A stretch of 23,426 nt of DNA from a virus: IMG/VR virus record IMGVR_UViG_3300047553_000075, positions 1-23,426 of that record. One strand, given 5' to 3'. Under the pieces are notes generated by a model. It saw only the letters and a program-made list of their open reading frames with translations, did no database searches and was not told the origin of the DNA. Numbering within the stretch: the first letter of the stretch is position 1; every line of letters starts with the position of its first letter. The translations under genes and the position numbers were made by a program. Below, piece after piece: positions 8,463-20,971 of the stretch.

Positions 8463-8656
8463 TCTTAGCTGAATGGTACACTGGCTTTGGCTTCAGCATT
8501 GAAGCTAACAATACAAATATGTATGCAGTGCCTTATGAGGAACAACCAGAGGACTCTGATGAAGAACCTGAACTAGGACTTCTACAGTTTGACGGCGCTA
8601 TTATCAATCTTCCGTTCATCAAGATTCACATTGGTGATTTTGTGCACATAGAATAG
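8459..8656 (+). CDS. Hypothetical acidic protein, 65 aa
   Basis: Last gene of the plus-strand operon, coupled to phoH by an ATGA overlap and ending 44 bases before the shared terminator. The product has an aromatic N-terminus (LAEWYTGFGFSIEA), a strongly acidic middle (EEQPEDSDEEPELG) and an all-beta hydrophobic end (AIINLPFIKIHIGDFVHIE). No known motif. The acid-rich middle raises the idea of a DNA mimic, but there is no supporting sequence pattern. Confidence 0.65.
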   Translation: MILAEWYTGFGFSIEANNTNMYAVPYEEQPEDSDEEPELGLLQFDGAIINLPFIKIHIGDFVHIE

Positions 8657-8700
8657 CGCAGCGTAGCGAGCATCTACGAAGCAGTAATTTAGGCAACAAA

Positions 8701-8745
8701 AAAGCCCCTGCTAAGAGCACATAAGTGTTCCTAGACAGGGGCTTT
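8701..8745. terminator. Bidirectional Rho-independent terminator between converging arms
   Basis: AAAGCCCCTG (8701-8710) pairs perfectly with CAGGGGCTTT (8736-8745). Inside, CTA/TAG and GAGCAC/GTGTTC can extend the stem to an AT-rich tetraloop. A-rich sequence to the left (CAACAAAAAAG) and T-rich sequence to the right (CTTTGTTATTTAT) give a U-tract to transcripts from either side. It stands exactly where the plus-strand operon ends and the minus-strand structural operon ends, so it probably stops both and prevents head-on read-through. Confidence 0.9.
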
Positions 8746-8783
8746 GTTATTTATACTCGCAGAAACTGCGTGTTGTTTATGGG

Positions 8784-8852
8784 TTAACTACAGCGGAGGA
8801 TGCTGGCCAGCACCGGAGGTGCGTAGAGGATGGAGGGGGGGGCGGGGGTCAC
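8784..8852 (-). pseudogene. Remnant of a zincin-like gene (relative of 18836-19099)
   Basis: A 22-codon frame starting at GTG 8852, ten bases after the tailspike stop, reads MTPAPPSIL, then YAPPVL, then ASILRC and stops. The intact gene at 18836-19099 begins MTPTPSIL-ATILRWRG and also lies directly after a tailspike gene (nine bases). The shared MTP-P-SIL and A-S/T-ILR-C/W pattern, same position and same G+C-rich make-up suggest that this is the 5' end of a second copy, cut off right after the ILR codons where the sequence changes to ordinary A+T-leaning DNA. It contains a G8-C-G5 run on the plus strand. A real 22-aa peptide cannot be ruled out. Confidence 0.6.
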
Positions 8853-8862
8853 GGCGCTTCCA

Positions 8863-10398
8863 TCAAATGACATTGACGATGATGTCGTCGTAATAGATTT
8901 TGTGGGCACCTACCTGCTGCTGCCCGCCGATCTCAAACACAATCTTGTCGGTGCCTGGAGGAACTACTGAAAAACTCCCGATCCAGGTCCAGTCGGTATC
9001 TGTCGCATTTACAGAAATACTTGATTCCGAAATTAAAGCGCTTGATGCGTCAAGGAACTTGATCCTCGGATAGTCAACAACTCCAGTCCCGCCATCGGCT
9101 TTCGCCCACATCCCAAACACTGCTGTTCGACCAACGTACTGTGATGCCCCAGATAACGTCTGCGTCACCGCGATGCCACCATTTGCAACGCAGTCCGCCA
9201 AGAAACACCGTGATCCGATTTTTGGATAAGTCGTGACACTACTAAAAACAGATCCGGCGGCGCCATATGCGGATGCAGACCACCCTGTCGTATTGCCAGT
9301 CTCTCCGCCGTCGTTGTACAGGATATTGTTTAGGTGAGAGAACACGGCCCAGTCAGTTCGACCTGCTACGCCAGTCCCCTTCACATAGTTGTTCGCGCAC
9401 ACAATGTAAGGTGAACCACCAGCCACAAGCTCTCTGCGGCCATCAGTAGTCTCTGACCTCAAATCGTTCCCGTATAACGGAAGTGTTGAGTTAATAACTC
9501 GCAGACCGCATGAATTTTGAATCAAGAACAGGGCGCGGTCTGCTTCGCCTCCGTTTGTAGATACTGTGCATCCATCCAAAACAATGAGCGAAGACTCGTA
9601 GCCTTCCAAAATTCTCTGATTCGCAACATCAGGCTGCACTTCTAGGTTGCATCCGCTCAGTACGACATGTGCAGAGCCAAGCACCTGCATCCCACCAATG
9701 CCACCGCCAGGGAAAGAGCAATGGTCAAAGAACCATTGCCCTTCTTTAAGGTAGATGTAAGCGGTGGTCCCATCAACAAACCAGCAATGGGAAAATAGCA
9801 TCACTTCGCCTGCGTTCGCTCCAGAATTGAAGTACAGGTAGTTGTCCTCTGGGGATTCAAAGCCGCAGTGATCGAAATTGACGCGCCAAGCGTTGTCGAT
9901 GAATTGAACCAGTTTGCCAGCGTTGCGGAACGAGCAGTTGCGGAATGTGATCTCGGCGTTGCTATCGTAAGTTGCGTGACCAACTTTGACCAAAAGGAAC
10001 CCCGTGGTCTTGCTACCCTTGAATGAAACACCCTCAATCCAGTGCGTCCAGTTTCTCTCCAAACGCGTCGCTCCATAACTTGCGCTTGAGTAAACGTTCA
10101 GCACGCCCGTAGAACTAGAAGAGCCATCAATTACGGAGCCGTTGCCGATAAGGGACGCAAGAGAGATGTCCAGATTTAAGACGGCGCTCACTTTGTGCGT
10201 GGCGTTGTCAATCAGCCGCACCTTGCCGCCGTAGTTGATCGCAGCTTGAATCGCAGCCGTGTCATCGGTCACACCATCACCAACGGCACCAAAGTCCTTA
10301 ACAGACACACTCTCACTTAGCTTATCATAAAGACTTACCGTAGAGCCGCCACTGATTTGATGAGTAATCTGTTTACTCTTAGCCTTAGTCATTGCCAT
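8863..10398 (-). CDS. Tailspike B: right-handed beta-helix (Pectate_lyase_3) protein
   Basis: A 511-aa receptor-binding/depolymerase candidate. After about 30 residues the Pectate_lyase_3 entry motif appears (SVKDFGAVGDGVTDDTAAI, 32-50), followed by repeated beta-helix rungs with NCSF, DHCGF, SHCWF and DHCSF turns. From about residue 360 to the end is a jelly-roll, carbohydrate-binding-like domain (TGWSASAYG opening, IYYDDIIVNVI ending). Such proteins bind and often cleave capsule or O-antigen. Its N-terminus is much shorter than that of tailspike A, so it lacks that protein's virion-anchor domain and may attach through another tail protein. The gene is clearly more G+C-rich than the genes upstream. 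Start ATG 10398 has an AAGGAA site; a second ATG lies two codons on. Confidence 0.88.
   Translation of the reverse strand: MAMTKAKSKQITHQISGGSTVSLYDKLSESVSVKDFGAVGDGVTDDTAAIQAAINYGGKVRLIDNATHKVSAVLNLDISLASLIGNGSVIDGSSSSTGVLNVYSSASYGATRLERNWTHWIEGVSFKGSKTTGFLLVKVGHATYDSNAEITFRNCSFRNAGKLVQFIDNAWRVNFDHCGFESPEDNYLYFNSGANAGEVMLFSHCWFVDGTTAYIYLKEGQWFFDHCSFPGGGIGGMQVLGSAHVVLSGCNLEVQPDVANQRILEGYESSLIVLDGCTVSTNGGEADRALFLIQNSCGLRVINSTLPLYGNDLRSETTDGRRELVAGGSPYIVCANNYVKGTGVAGRTDWAVFSHLNNILYNDGGETGNTTGWSASAYGAAGSVFSSVTTYPKIGSRCFLADCVANGGIAVTQTLSGASQYVGRTAVFGMWAKADGGTGVVDYPRIKFLDASSALISESSISVNATDTDWTWIGSFSVVPPGTDKIVFEIGGQQQVGAHKIYYDDIIVNVI
10253..10314 (-). repeat. 62-bp segment shared by both tailspike genes (copy 1)
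   Basis: Aligns without gaps to 20454-20515 with 10 mismatches by eye (about 84% identity). It encodes the DFGAVGDGV-DDTAAI entry of the beta-helix in each protein. High identity in an otherwise different pair of genes could mark a recombination junction, or only strong protein-level constraint. Confidence 0.7.
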
Positions 10399-10650: not shown

Positions 10651-11037
10651 TTATTTAGATGCAACCTTGTTAATCTTTTCTACAGTCCTGAGACCACCTA
10701 AGCCTAGCATACCTAGCAACAAAGGCATCATCTCAGACAAATCAGCAGGACTAAGCATGATAGGTTTACCTAGAAGATCTAGAGCAAACTTAGCCATTGG
10801 AAGTCCTACCCAGTTCCATGCACAGCCAGCACCGCAGACCCACCCAATAGCAGGTCTCCAGCCACTAACGAATACACTAGCGTTACTAGCTTCAGCTTTG
10901 TTGATCTCAAGCTGAGACTGCACGATGGACAGCGCAGCGGCCAACTCAGCCTTCTCTTGTTCAGTCTTGTTAGGCCAGATACGATCAATGACTGTCTTAC
11001 CAATATCCAGCACAGCAGTTACAGGATCTAAACTCAT
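10651..11037 (-). CDS. Holin, GTA 3-TM type
   Basis: A 128-aa protein resembling the holin family first described with gene transfer agents. Residues 1-50 form an amphipathic helical region ([25 protein letters not shown]). It is followed by [21 protein letters not shown], a membrane-compatible segment, then [12 protein letters not shown] and [20 protein letters not shown], a further hydrophobic segment. WRPAIGW and [15 protein letters not shown] are the family's hallmarks. It would form the inner-membrane lesion that releases the lysozyme encoded just upstream. The start is ATG 11037, six bases after AGGAGA and overlapping the lysozyme stop as ATGA; a GTG at 11043 is less likely. Confidence 0.85.
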
Positions 11038-11459
11038 ACCCACTCTCCTGTCTTCATTTGAGCAGAAAGCCTAGATGCCCTGTTAGGTGTCTGCTTTGCC
11101 CATAGGCTGTCAAGCATGGCATCAGAGGCTTCCTTGTACTTACCGTTCTTGATAAGCTCCAGAGTATTCTTAAACTTCAACAGTCCATCTACGCCCATCT
11201 GGAAAGCCATGTTGACTAGGGCTCCTTTACGAGCATCATCTAAGTCATTCACCCAAGGGAGTCTCTTGAGTAGCTCTTCAGTCTTCTCGTCAATGTCATT
11301 ATTGAGAAGGAAGAGCCCTTCCTCAAGAGTGATATGACCTCCCTTGCGTTCATCAATGAGACGACCAAAGCCTATTGTCCAGTAACCTAAGTGGTCTTGG
11401 TAGGCATGTTCTTTGAAGCCTTCGTCACGTTGTAGTTGGCGTAAGAGTTGGGGCTTCAT
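11034..11459 (-). CDS. Endolysin: T4-type lysozyme (GH24)
   Basis: A 141-aa muramidase that would cut peptidoglycan between MurNAc and GlcNAc. The catalytic set of T4 lysozyme (E11, D20, T26) maps to E13 in RDEG, D22 in AYQDHLG and T28 in WTIGFGR, a constant shift of two. Other family blocks: ALVNMAFQMGVDGLLKF and LWAKQTPNRASRL near the C-terminus. The long frame extends upstream to 11630 but only within the neighbouring gene; ATG 11459 gives the family-typical start MKPQLLRQLQRDEGF. No signal peptide or SAR segment is seen, so export depends on the adjacent holin. Confidence 0.93.
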   Translation of the reverse strand: MKPQLLRQLQRDEGFKEHAYQDHLGYWTIGFGRLIDERKGGHITLEEGLFLLNNDIDEKTEELLKRLPWVNDLDDARKGALVNMAFQMGVDGLLKFKNTLELIKNGKYKEASDAMLDSLWAKQTPNRASRLSAQMKTGEWV

Positions 11460-11460
11460 G

Positions 11461-13005
11461 TTACTCTTCAGTTTGCACTGGTTCAGTACTGACTTCACGC
11501 ATACGAGCTTCAATGAGTGAACGCCATGCAGCCTTGGAAGGCGGAGGAGCAATACTACCTGAAAGGATACCAGAGATGACATCCTGTGCTGCTTTACGCT
11601 GAATATACGCCAATGTTCTATCAGACGCAAAACCGATACCTGCCATAGTAAGGGCTGCTCCAGGACTCATAAGTGCTCCTACCGCAAGCTGGCTCCCGGC
11701 TGCTAGTTGACTACGTTCCGGGTTAAAGCGAGCAGAAAAAGACAACAGCTTCTCAAGACCTTGCCCACTAACAATACGTCGAATAGCTTCTTGTTCATCT
11801 TTGGTGAATAGACGCATCTTGTTCTTGTTAGCTGCCAAGAGCTTGAACTGATTACGAATAAGCTCACCCTCAGATGTCTTAGGATCTAGTGCCCGTGCTT
11901 CAGCAACATTCAAAGCATCTTCAAGAAGACCAGCTTTAGAGACTTTACGCCAAGAGTCACGAGCTTCTTTAATGTCATCCAGAGCAGAAGCAATACTGTT
12001 CTTACCTGTAATGAGATCAGTAGGTTGCAGAGAAGTGATCTTATCGTCAATACCAGCAACTACTTGGGAAGCAAGCCTACGAGTAGCAGGATCTTTACTT
12101 TCTCGTGCAAGGTCATTAGCTGCTTGACGGAGTTGATCCATCTTAGCAAAAGACACCCGAGTAGTTCCTACCATCTGTCGCATTTGATCCAGCACTGTTT
12201 TAACAGGCTTATGCGAATCTAGCAACGGATTAAAGTTAGAGTTATTAACTAGGTTTGCTTCAATGCTATCAATAGTGTCAAGCACAGGCTTAGGCTTAAC
12301 GTTAATGCCTGCATTGTCAACCCGCGTATAAGCACGTTGAGCATCTAGCTTAACTTCATCCATAGACACAGGAACAATAGGTTCCTTTTGAGCCACACGA
12401 GCAGCCTTAGCTCCTGTAAGACCCGCCAGAGTTCCTACAGCCAAAGTAGCTGCTGCTGTCTGCAAAGGAGAATATCCAACCTCCTGTGCCCGCTCTGCTG
12501 TAGCCTGTGCTGCCGTGCCTGCTGCGCCTGCTGAAGCAATCTGTTGAGGCAATGCTTGCGTCAGAGGACGTAGCATCTCAGTACCAGCCTTAGCAGCAAG
12601 CCTAGCTTGTCCACCAACATCAGCCATTGCAGCAGTGCCTGCCTGTACAGCCCTTTCAAGCCGTCCTTGAGGCTCTGGAAGACCCATCTGAGTCAGAAGG
12701 TTCTGTACAGCAGCCTGCTGAGAAGGAAGGATTTGTCTACCAGCAATCTTATTGACACCGTAGACAATAGGCTCTGCTAGCATAGCAGGAAGACTCGTAA
12801 GACCTGTCAGTCCAGCACGGGCTGTCAAGCCTAGTTGTCGTCCTGCTTCTTCCCAGACTGAAGAAGTACGTTGAGCGGGAGCAGGCTTAAGTTCTTCTTT
12901 CTTAGTTCCTCCAAATTGAGCAGATAACACTGTCTCAATATCAGAATCGGACATGTTATCAGGAAATTCGATTACATCCTGTCCAACTTCAATGTACTTA
13001 GGCAT
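11461..13005 (-). CDS. Putative internal virion / DNA ejection protein, 514 aa
   Basis: Opens with a small beta/alpha element (MPKYIEVGQDVIEFPDNMSD) resembling the N-terminus of phage injection proteins (recollection). A long alanine-rich region (about 50-220) follows with several weakly hydrophobic, membrane-compatible helices (GLTARAGLTGLTSLPAMLAE; ASAGAAGTAAQATAERA; TAAATLAVGTLAGLTGAKAA). The second half is charged and helical, coiled-coil-like, with another hydrophobic patch near 440-460. This is the pattern of proteins that leave the capsid first and form the DNA channel. No transglycosylase motif is visible. It is coupled to the upstream gene by TAATG and lies one base before the lysozyme gene. 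Confidence 0.6.
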   Translation of the reverse strand: MPKYIEVGQDVIEFPDNMSDSDIETVLSAQFGGTKKEELKPAPAQRTSSVWEEAGRQLGLTARAGLTGLTSLPAMLAEPIVYGVNKIAGRQILPSQQAAVQNLLTQMGLPEPQGRLERAVQAGTAAMADVGGQARLAAKAGTEMLRPLTQALPQQIASAGAAGTAAQATAERAQEVGYSPLQTAAATLAVGTLAGLTGAKAARVAQKEPIVPVSMDEVKLDAQRAYTRVDNAGINVKPKPVLDTIDSIEANLVNNSNFNPLLDSHKPVKTVLDQMRQMVGTTRVSFAKMDQLRQAANDLARESKDPATRRLASQVVAGIDDKITSLQPTDLITGKNSIASALDDIKEARDSWRKVSKAGLLEDALNVAEARALDPKTSEGELIRNQFKLLAANKNKMRLFTKDEQEAIRRIVSGQGLEKLLSFSARFNPERSQLAAGSQLAVGALMSPGAALTMAGIGFASDRTLAYIQRKAAQDVISGILSGSIAPPPSKAAWRSLIEARMREVSTEPVQTEE

Positions 13006-18575: not shown

Positions 18576-18839
18576 TTAGTTAAACCACTTAGCACCAAAC
18601 TGAACAATAGCGAATAAGACACCAGCAGCAGCCCAGACACCAACGCCTCTATTGACCCACTGATCTAGATTGCGTTTAGTGTCGTTCATGTCTTTCTCAA
18701 GGACTGCCATAGCCCTCTCAACACGGCCAATACGTTCTCCTTGGTTAGCAAGACGCTCCTCAACGAGAATCAACTTAGATACAGCATCGGTTAATTTGTC
18801 TACCTTGTTTTCAAGGCGTCGGAAGTCGTCGTCTGTCAT
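18576..18839 (-). CDS. Coiled-coil protein with C-terminal membrane segment (lysis-type candidate)
   Basis: An 87-aa protein: residues 5-60 are a heptad-rich coiled coil (FRRLENKVDKLTDAVSKLIL; ERLANQGERIGRVERAMAVL), then a short loop (DQWVNRGVG) and one hydrophobic segment (VWAAAGVLFAIVQFGAKWF) at the C-terminus. This is the layout of haemolysin XhlA-like and some phage holin/antiholin-associated proteins. It could be a tail-anchored inner-membrane protein acting in lysis or superinfection control. It is coupled to the zincin-like gene by an ATGA overlap, so the two may act together. Function is inferred from topology only. Confidence 0.6.
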   Translation of the reverse strand: MTDDDFRRLENKVDKLTDAVSKLILVEERLANQGERIGRVERAMAVLEKDMNDTKRNLDQWVNRGVGVWAAAGVLFAIVQFGAKWFN

Positions 18840-19099
18840 GATAGTCTTTCTGCCTCACGGGCTTCAATCTCCATAGGATTATTACGATAACCGTACTTAA
18901 GAGAGTACCAAAGATATACAGCGTAGAACTTTAGTACTCCCATGCGTTCATATTGACGCCAGTGAGCTTGCTCGTGACGTAGCAGCCTTGCATCTCCGCA
19001 GCACTCCGGCAGCGCGTAGATGCCGAAGGGCGGCAGCGTTATGGCTCGGAAGCCACGCCAGCGGAGGATGGTGGCGAGGATGCTGGGGGTGGGGGTCAT
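18836..19099 (-). CDS. Zincin-like (HExxH) small phage protein, 87 aa
   Basis: Contains H42-E43-Q-A-H46 (RHEQAHWRQYERMG) followed by an aromatic helix (FYAVYLWYSLKYGYRNNP) and M-E77-I-E79-A-R-E, giving HExxH plus a downstream glutamate as in minigluzincin-type metallopeptidases. The N-terminus is Pro-rich (MTPTPSIL) with PPFGIYALPE. It could be a peptidase acting on the cell envelope or on a phage protein, or a fold without activity. It directly follows tailspike A and is G+C-rich like it, and a broken relative follows tailspike B (8784-8852). Coupled by ATGA to the coiled-coil gene. Confidence 0.72.
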   Translation of the reverse strand: MTPTPSILATILRWRGFRAITLPPFGIYALPECCGDARLLRHEQAHWRQYERMGVLKFYAVYLWYSLKYGYRNNPMEIEAREAERLS

Positions 19100-19108
19100 T
19101 ACGCCTTT

Positions 19109-20971
19109 TTAGATTTGCTGCCAGCCGCCGCCGAGCAGCATGATGGTGAAGCCTGCCGGGTCGGCCAATGCTCCACCAGTTCCGACCGTGAAAAACTGAA
19201 TTCGATCATTTCCAGTATTGCTGCTCAAAACGCTACATGCATACATATTCCCCCCGCCGTTCGTAGCCGGGGTTACAAGGACAGGATATTTTCCAGCAGC
19301 AAGGGCTTGACGATTGAATCTATATGTCAACGTGTAATCGCCTACACCATTACGAGTAACGGAAGTTATAAAGTTAGCTGACTGAAAGTCGAGTGTGGGG
19401 GTGGTCCCTGAAATAGAAACAGAGGCGTACAGTGGCAATACCCGTCGATCTACTGTCGGGCTTGTTTGACCTTCCCAATACACATTCACACTGTTCGTCG
19501 TGATGTAGTTGTTCTCAATGTCTGCCGTGTAGCTGTATGTGGCATTGGGAATGTAAATGGCTGCGTTCGCAAGGCGACCGTTTGTTGGAGTCGCTGCGTA
19601 ATTGCCCCGAATGGAATTGTTCTTGATCGACACGTTCTTGATCGACGCAGCATCGAGGCAGATCGCCCCTTCCACGTTGGTCCCTGCGCCGAAGTCGCCG
19701 TTCAAATGGTTGTTGAAGATCCGGGTCTGCCTAGTGTTCTCCACGTAAATTGCGTACTTGTAGGCCCCGCCTTCTTGCCAGCAGTTCTGGATGATCGGAC
19801 CGCCACCGTAGTCATAGGACTCGTTGGAATCTTCGATATGGATAATGTTGTACAGGGCATTGTTTGTTGTCGATTGGAACGTACAAGCATCCAGCAGGAA
19901 ACTGCCTCCAGAGATGTAGACAGAAGTTGCCTCGCAACCCGAAATCCAGCAGCCGTACATGCGCGAGATGTTGGCGCGTGTGGTTTGTAATGCTTGGACC
20001 GTCATGTCCTGGGCGCTGCTGGGCGTGCCGATCGGATATACATCCCACCACGCACCCTCAAAGCAAGAGAAGATGTTGCAATCGATCATGGCGGTGTCAA
20101 TGCAGCCATGCATCCATGCTGCGCGACCGCAGTTCTGAATGGTCACATTCTGAACAAGGCTCAATCCTGCGGACTGGTAGACGATGCCCGAGTGATTGTT
20201 GACAAGGTTGTGGCCGTCGATGGTCAGGTTGCGCACGGTGCAGTACTGCGCACCGTATCCCGTGCTGTTACCAAACCAGACCATCCCGCCCGCCCCCCAC
20301 GAGGGAGCCGACTTGATGATGGTGTGCTCCTGGCTCTCGCCGTAGAGCGTTCTGGCAATCGGGTTGGCCCCCCAGTCGCCAATCGTGCTGCTGATCAGGT
20401 AGGTGCCATTTGGGAAGTACACGGCCTTAGAGGCTGCGATAGCCGCATTGATGGCCGCCGTGTCATCGGCCACGCCATCACCAACAGCACCAAAGTCCTT
20501 CACGCTCACCGTCTCGCGCAGCTTGGTCTGCACAGTCGTGGCGACGGCTCCGGTGCCTGCTGGGGTGTAACTAACATAGTTAGCATCAGTGCTACCAATA
20601 GGAGCACTCTGCCAGATCATGACTTCAATGTTATCAGTACCGGACACAGGTGCCTCAGTAAAGGTAATAACATTGGTGGATACACTGAACGTATCTTTGT
20701 TTTGATAGATACCGTTGATGTAGATGTCTACCAAGTCTTCATTAACAGGCGTATGAGCCATCGTGAACACGGTAGTAACATCGTTACCACTAAAGTTCTC
20801 ACGATAGACAATAGCGGTACCTGAGCCTACTTCCACCACCGTACCAGTGGCGTCTTTGGTGTACAAACGACGATCAGTAGTATTGATAGCCAGTTCACCT
20901 TGGGTCAGATTAGCCGCAAGAGGAACTGCACCAGCAGTGCTGCTGTTCTTGGTGATGATAGTAGATGCCAT
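19109..20971 (-). CDS. Tailspike A: N-terminal anchor plus beta-helix (Pectate_lyase_3)
   Basis: A 620-aa tailspike. Residues 1-50 (STIITKNSSTAGAVPLAANL; TQGELAINTTDRRLYTKD) are a common virion-attachment start. A second small beta domain runs to about 130 (FSGNDVTTVFTMAHTPVNED). The beta-helix entry motif VSVKDFGAVGDGVADDTAAI follows at about 154-173, then many rungs with NVTIQNCG, MIDCNIFSC, IIQNCWQEGG and NVSIKNNSIRGN. The C-terminus is a beta-rich domain ending LGGGWQQI. It probably binds and may cleave a surface polysaccharide. The gene's first ~400 bases are A+T-leaning like the core genome, the rest G+C-rich, so the receptor part looks grafted onto a resident anchor. Confidence 0.92.
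   Translation of the reverse strand: MASTIITKNSSTAGAVPLAANLTQGELAINTTDRRLYTKDATGTVVEVGSGTAIVYRENFSGNDVTTVFTMAHTPVNEDLVDIYINGIYQNKDTFSVSTNVITFTEAPVSGTDNIEVMIWQSAPIGSTDANYVSYTPAGTGAVATTVQTKLRETVSVKDFGAVGDGVADDTAAINAAIAASKAVYFPNGTYLISSTIGDWGANPIARTLYGESQEHTIIKSAPSWGAGGMVWFGNSTGYGAQYCTVRNLTIDGHNLVNNHSGIVYQSAGLSLVQNVTIQNCGRAAWMHGCIDTAMIDCNIFSCFEGAWWDVYPIGTPSSAQDMTVQALQTTRANISRMYGCWISGCEATSVYISGGSFLLDACTFQSTTNNALYNIIHIEDSNESYDYGGGPIIQNCWQEGGAYKYAIYVENTRQTRIFNNHLNGDFGAGTNVEGAICLDAASIKNVSIKNNSIRGNYAATPTNGRLANAAIYIPNATYSYTADIENNYITTNSVNVYWEGQTSPTVDRRVLPLYASVSISGTTPTLDFQSANFITSVTRNGVGDYTLTYRFNRQALAAGKYPVLVTPATNGGGNMYACSVLSSNTGNDRIQFFTVGTGGALADPAGFTIMLLGGGWQQI
20454..20515 (-). repeat. 62-bp segment shared by both tailspike genes (copy 2)
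   Basis: Partner of 10253-10314; 52 of 62 bases agree by hand alignment without gaps. It encodes the same beta-helix entry motif in tailspike A and lies about 60 bases inside the composition change of that gene. Confidence 0.7.

Follow-up and report, generated by a model that had tools for sequence, protein, structure and literature searches.

A stranded zincin-gene start behind a second tailspike gene as a probable edge of spike exchange in an uncultured virus

In a 23.4-kb contig of an uncultured virus (the window hereafter, that is the whole stretch of DNA that was analysed, for which a near-identical 40.6-kb sister contig exists), the second of two tailspike genes is followed by what is, judged from its sequence, a stranded copy of the opening ~45 bases of a gene for a small enzyme; this zincin-like gene stands intact behind the other tailspike. 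We consider it likely that this scar is a stranded 3' homology anchor used in the exchange of spike genes. The scar and its surroundings comprise the following features.

8784..8852, minus strand: scar ORF, a zincin-start remnant after tailspike B (sequence; alignment to the zincin starts of the loci L003 and L004 and of the window)
8826..8852, minus strand: scar segment 1, resembling zincin nt 1-24 plus one extra codon (alignment to L004)
8808..8825, minus strand: 18-nt insert inside the scar, weakly like zincin nt 80-101 (score reached by 9-15 of 3000 shuffles)
8791..8807, minus strand: scar segment 2, resembling zincin nt 25-41 (17-mer search and alignment)
8704..8742, no strand assigned: terminator-like hairpins, bidirectional, beyond the scar (4 sites in 8600-8900 versus 0.2 expected)

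The scar ORF runs from 8852 to 8784 with a GTG start, 22 codons and a stop, and begins 10 nt after the stop of tailspike B (8863). Its translation reads GTG-TPAPPSIL-(YAPPVL)-ASILRCS-stop and its DNA consists, in this order, of GTGACCCCCGCCCCCCCCTCCATCCTC, TACGCACCTCCGGTGCTG and GCCAGCATCCTCCGCTG, with AT-rich sequence thereafter. Except for extra pieces of 3 and 18 nt the scar runs collinearly with the zincin gene start behind tailspike A, and alignment to the zincin starts of L003 and L004 gave the same collinear arrangement: segment 1 (27 nt) equals the L004 zincin start save for one extra codon and 2 mismatches, and segment 2 (17 nt) has 1 mismatch to the window zincin. The best local score of the scar against the three zincin starts is 33, which was reached by 0 of 5000 dinucleotide shuffles and by only 2 non-zincin pieces among ~3380 real pieces from GC-rich phages. 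Moreover, the 17-mer GCCAGCATCCTCCGCTG, with up to 2 mismatches allowed, occurs in the window only at 8791-8807 and 19059-19075 (0.01 expected). The remnant that a preliminary description of this DNA had reported is thus real, and both tailspikes are, as stated there, followed within about ten bases by the same gene start, the gap between the stop of tailspike A and the zincin start being 9 nt. Its reading as a plain truncated start holds for the zincin-type beginning, but the start codon is GTG and the 18-nt insert interrupts the sequence. This insert, TACGCACCTCCGGTGCTG, contains a small GCACC/GGTGC hairpin. An N-terminal profile search of the fetched loci yielded no convincing further stray zincin starts, a weak result as the search also missed the scar of the window itself, and a DNA pattern for scar-like starts matched the known L003, L004 and sister contigs and four unrelated sites.

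The two spike loci that flank these gene starts are laid out as follows.

8863..10398, minus strand: tailspike B, 511 aa, beta-helix, short N-terminus
10237..10323, minus strand: 5' homology block of tailspike B (DFGAVGDGVTDDTAA), 87 nt with 78% identity to 20438-20524
19059..19099, minus strand: 3' anchor block behind tailspike A, formed by the zincin start (17-mer search; blastn of the spike loci)
19109..20971, minus strand: tailspike A, 620 aa, beta-helix
20438..20524, minus strand: 5' homology block of tailspike A, 87 nt, 78% identical to the tailspike B block

Comparison of the two loci by blastn returned the 87-nt block at the spike 5' end, which encodes the DFGAVGDG motif (78% identity, E of 1e-15), and 20 nt at 90% identity in the zincin start (E of 0.012), a match that on its E-value would be weak and that owes its weight to its position; the remaining matches, of 19 and 15 nt, are at chance level. 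Likeness between the loci is practically confined to the two edges, which counts for the exchange reading. Since the bodies of spikes A and B are unrelated, the earlier suggestion that they were acquired separately is plausible, but the cassette that it took to be decayed is more fittingly seen as a recombination edge left stranded. The N-terminal ~120 residues of tailspike A have no counterpart in tailspike B, which may for this reason attach to the particle by a different mode or via another protein. Spike A has one relative besides the sister contig, and this relative ends at the contig end.

The behaviour of spikes and zincins in other genomes was followed by comparing ~200 fetched zincin loci. 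Zincin 3' halves with an identity of 88% or more are shared by 136 locus pairs, and 134 of them have spike ends, measured over the final 300 nt of the spike gene, that are unrelated; this comparison covered 51 receptor-binding loci, and the 136 pairs were drawn from 31 related loci and do not represent independent events. Identity profiles stand at 93-100% in the zincin and downstream of it and at ~30%, the background level, upstream of the spike stop. Full-length comparison revealed N-terminal blocks that are alike to about residue 125-155, bodies that are unrelated, and identity that returns at the stop/zincin start, the shared N-terminal block being seen in nearly all compared pairs with recognised spikes. 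A joint transfer of spike and zincin, as had been proposed, is rejected by these pairs, in which the boundary lies at the spike stop/zincin start. In the spike-alike pairs L252/L199, L239/L250, L101/L267 and L120/L263, the spike end and ~45 nt of the zincin are common and divergence follows. Zincin-start identity in spike pairs with similarly diverged zincins has a mean of 0.74 and a 95th percentile of 0.93, and as the start is conserved across the whole group, the exact crossover inside the zincin-start block is not placeable. Synonymous identity among spike-linked zincins is 0.68-0.78 in the 5' part versus 0.36-0.47 at the 3' end, with no such rise in other zincins; the conservation of the start is partly owed to its high GC3 (0.90) and to protein conservation. 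The clearest 5' hitchhiking, with 60-150 nt shared, is found in L033/L103/L160/L162, where the upstream gene was not identified as a spike.

How could a zincin start come to lie behind a second spike? The receptor-binding gene of these uncultured aquatic phages would be a swappable body between two edges: on the 5' side the conserved stretch around DFGAVGDGVTDDTAA in which the N-terminal domain of the spike ends, and on the 3' side the opening ~45-115 nt, likewise conserved, of the gene that follows, the small zincin that often heads the lysis cassette. Homologous recombination in both edges would swap the spikes while the zincin stays behind, and crossover in the edges would be the cause of the shared edges and unrelated bodies. 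An incoming spike that lands without a local zincin would carry the 3' edge along as a non-functional fragment. Spike B would have arrived by that route and landed where the late operon ends, ahead of the two-way terminator, and its edge would have been left there as the scar; we infer its insertion, the direction of this insertion and the action of a recombinase. No relative was found in which spike B is missing from the scar site, and the related genome L063, which has no zincin, yielded no empty site either. More tentatively, the first ~45 nt of the zincin family might be maintained as DNA across uncultured aquatic phages that otherwise differ and might serve as a common docking site for swaps of receptor-binding genes, seeding extra spikes at new sites and leaving fossils like the scar, a generalisation that we regard as doubtful at present.

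The zincin gene of the window itself may bear a trace of such an event. It and its neighbour are located as follows.

18836..19099, minus strand: zincin-like gene, 87 aa, HExxH (alignment; structure model with a pLDDT of 94.3)
18988..19099, minus strand: 5' part of the zincin (37 codons), GC-rich and L003-like, with the chimera border near 18980-18990 (DNA identity, synonymous codons, GC3)
18576..18839, minus strand: XhlA-like coiled-coil protein with a C-terminal hydrophobic stretch, adjoining the zincin (XhlA match below the Pfam cut-off)

DNA identity to L003 amounts to 99/111 nt in the first 37 codons and 89/147 nt in the rest, synonymous codons differ in the same comparison between the 5' part and the rest (Fisher p 8.8e-5), and GC3 is 0.84 in the first 37 codons versus 0.37 thereafter. 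By these measures the window zincin is a chimera of a GC-rich, L003-like edge joined to an AT-rich body, a structure that would result from the arrival of a spike together with its 3' edge and recombination inside the zincin.

The 18-nt insert in the scar speaks against the exchange reading, as a clean crossover does not explain it, and its weak likeness to zincin nt 80-101 leaves room for a longer zincin once present. It could be imagined that spike B came with a whole functional zincin of which the 3' part was later deleted, and a plausible Shine-Dalgarno sequence (GGAAG), the start codon and the correct zincin frame of the scar would suit such a history. Nevertheless, this history is unlikely. 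No zincin trace beyond the gene start was found 3' of the scar, where AT-rich DNA and the terminator follow within ~50-90 nt, and zincins and spikes are not kept together in relatives. In addition, no zincin adjoins the genes most closely related to spike B (59-62% identity); their next gene encodes a coiled-coil protein, followed, where contig remains, by an endolysin-like ORF. A stranded exchange edge remains the preferred reading of the scar.

In the zincin-like protein, H42, E43 and H46 of the HExxH motif are invariant in an alignment of 28 sequences, as is a downstream glutamate, E77, with E79 nearly invariant; the two glutamates are candidates for the third zinc ligand of a gluzincin. 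All matches of the structure model with Z of at least 2 are zincin metallopeptidases, with Z up to 4.0 (VIA-align), and a Foldseek search with the model gave no match at E <= 0.001. Among the nearest known systems are the minigluzincins abylysin (4jiu) and selecase (4qhj), with which the protein has HExxH and perhaps the downstream Glu in common; the differences are that Z does not exceed 4.0 and that no Pfam or NCBIfam family covers the window protein. The protein itself had no match in Pfam, where its relatives gave nothing convincing, and PDB held no related sequence. Metal-dependent peptidase activity is predicted. The family is common in uncultured viral contigs, with 54 loci in one search and 218 in another, of which the best 80 were kept, and rare in cultured phages, where two further searches matched 4 and 2 of 50,697 records. 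At L055:7821-8250 the zincin is split over two frames, with the N-terminal and HExxH-side matches in separate ORFs, possibly a frameshifted copy or a sequencing error. In genomes of Photobacterium, Enterovibrio and Grimontia (L169-L181), distant HExxH-side relatives form part of larger ORFs of up to ~220 aa.

In agreement with the preliminary description, zincins recur behind receptor-binding genes: of the 108 distinct zincins that have an adjoining ORF upstream, 44 come directly after a beta-helix spike, as detected by a profile built here, and Pfam and PHROGs scans agree, assigning among 38 upstream clusters 21 to Pect-lyase_RHGA_epim, 6 to Peptidase_S74 and 2 to the P22 portal. The spacing between spike and zincin is often 2-11 nt. 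About half of the zincins have no recognised receptor-binding gene upstream, which counts against the exchange reading, and lysis-type genes lie within 1.6 kb downstream of the zincin in 61 of 111 loci. Homologues of the coiled-coil gene at 18576..18839 come after the zincin in L003, L004, L022 and L113. In L011, L017 and L023 the zincin stands after a P22-type portal gene and before apparent scaffold and coat genes, a setting unlike the spike/lysis junction. In one freshwater group the zincin is preceded by large genes without known function. In L031, L032, L103, L134, L140, L157 and relatives the gene before it encodes 570-950 aa with no family match, and these proteins have short common starts (MPKYTLE..., MADQIYKVRDPQGN...) and unrelated ends, likewise swapped where the zincin begins. 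A similar beginning, MPKYIEVG, is seen in the window gene 13005-11461. The lysozyme ORF listed at 11034-11630 (TTG start) overlaps this preceding gene (11461-13005) by 170 nt, and its true start probably lies further inside.

The frequent and often tight adjacency would be in keeping with the zincin being a cognate helper of the spike, a maturation protease or a chaperone that travels with it like tail-fibre chaperones, and sharing of a fibre together with its cognate chaperone has been described in Alteromonas phages (PMC10579305). Such a functional pair is very unlikely here, since near-identical zincins stand behind unrelated spikes in nearly all pairs compared, zincins are also found behind portal and other genes, and some spike relatives, among them those of spike B, have no zincin; in the pair comparison helper type did not track spike type. 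The job tied to a particular spike that had been proposed for the zincin therefore finds no support. Of the roles that its two neighbourhoods hint at, lysis is the likelier one, because the zincin stays with its downstream genes more than with the spike. That a GC-rich intergenic stretch merely happens to resemble a zincin start is the least probable explanation of all, for although the scar is low in complexity and C-rich and two control pieces reach its score, its two segments are collinear, in frame and at the same distance from the spike stop, no shuffle scores as high, and the 17-mer is confined within the window to the two spike ends.

Spike exchange determines which bacteria a phage infects. 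If a fixed, recognisable exchange edge exists, spike swaps and their donors would be readable directly from metagenomes, stray edges would locate further fossils of spike insertion, and selection on the edges would become testable. Furthermore, adjacency is no proof of shared function, as the zincin adjoins spikes without following them.

The window case would be a further instance of the known exchange between flanking motifs, with an unusual 3' edge. In T-even phages, segments of the distal tail-fibre adhesins that determine receptor specificity are reportedly swapped by recombination between short conserved motifs, as Tetart and colleagues are said to have described in 1998; those motifs lie in or around the fibre or adhesin genes, whereas here the edge sits in the zincin gene. 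Homology-driven gene shuffling by Rad52-like recombinases tolerates divergence and leaves traces at the borders of exchanged fragments, and such relaxed recombination has been demonstrated for temperate E. coli phages (PMC3945230). A close likeness is to lytic E. coli phages of six genera, in which conserved motifs flanking the receptor-binding domains were proposed as recombination hotspots (PMC10408124). On the 3' side they have a non-coding, terminator-like block of 20 nt, whereas here it is the coding start of the neighbouring zincin, with a stray copy after the second spike. As in those phages, the window appears to combine a conserved 5' block, a conserved 3' block just after the spike and unrelated bodies between the two.
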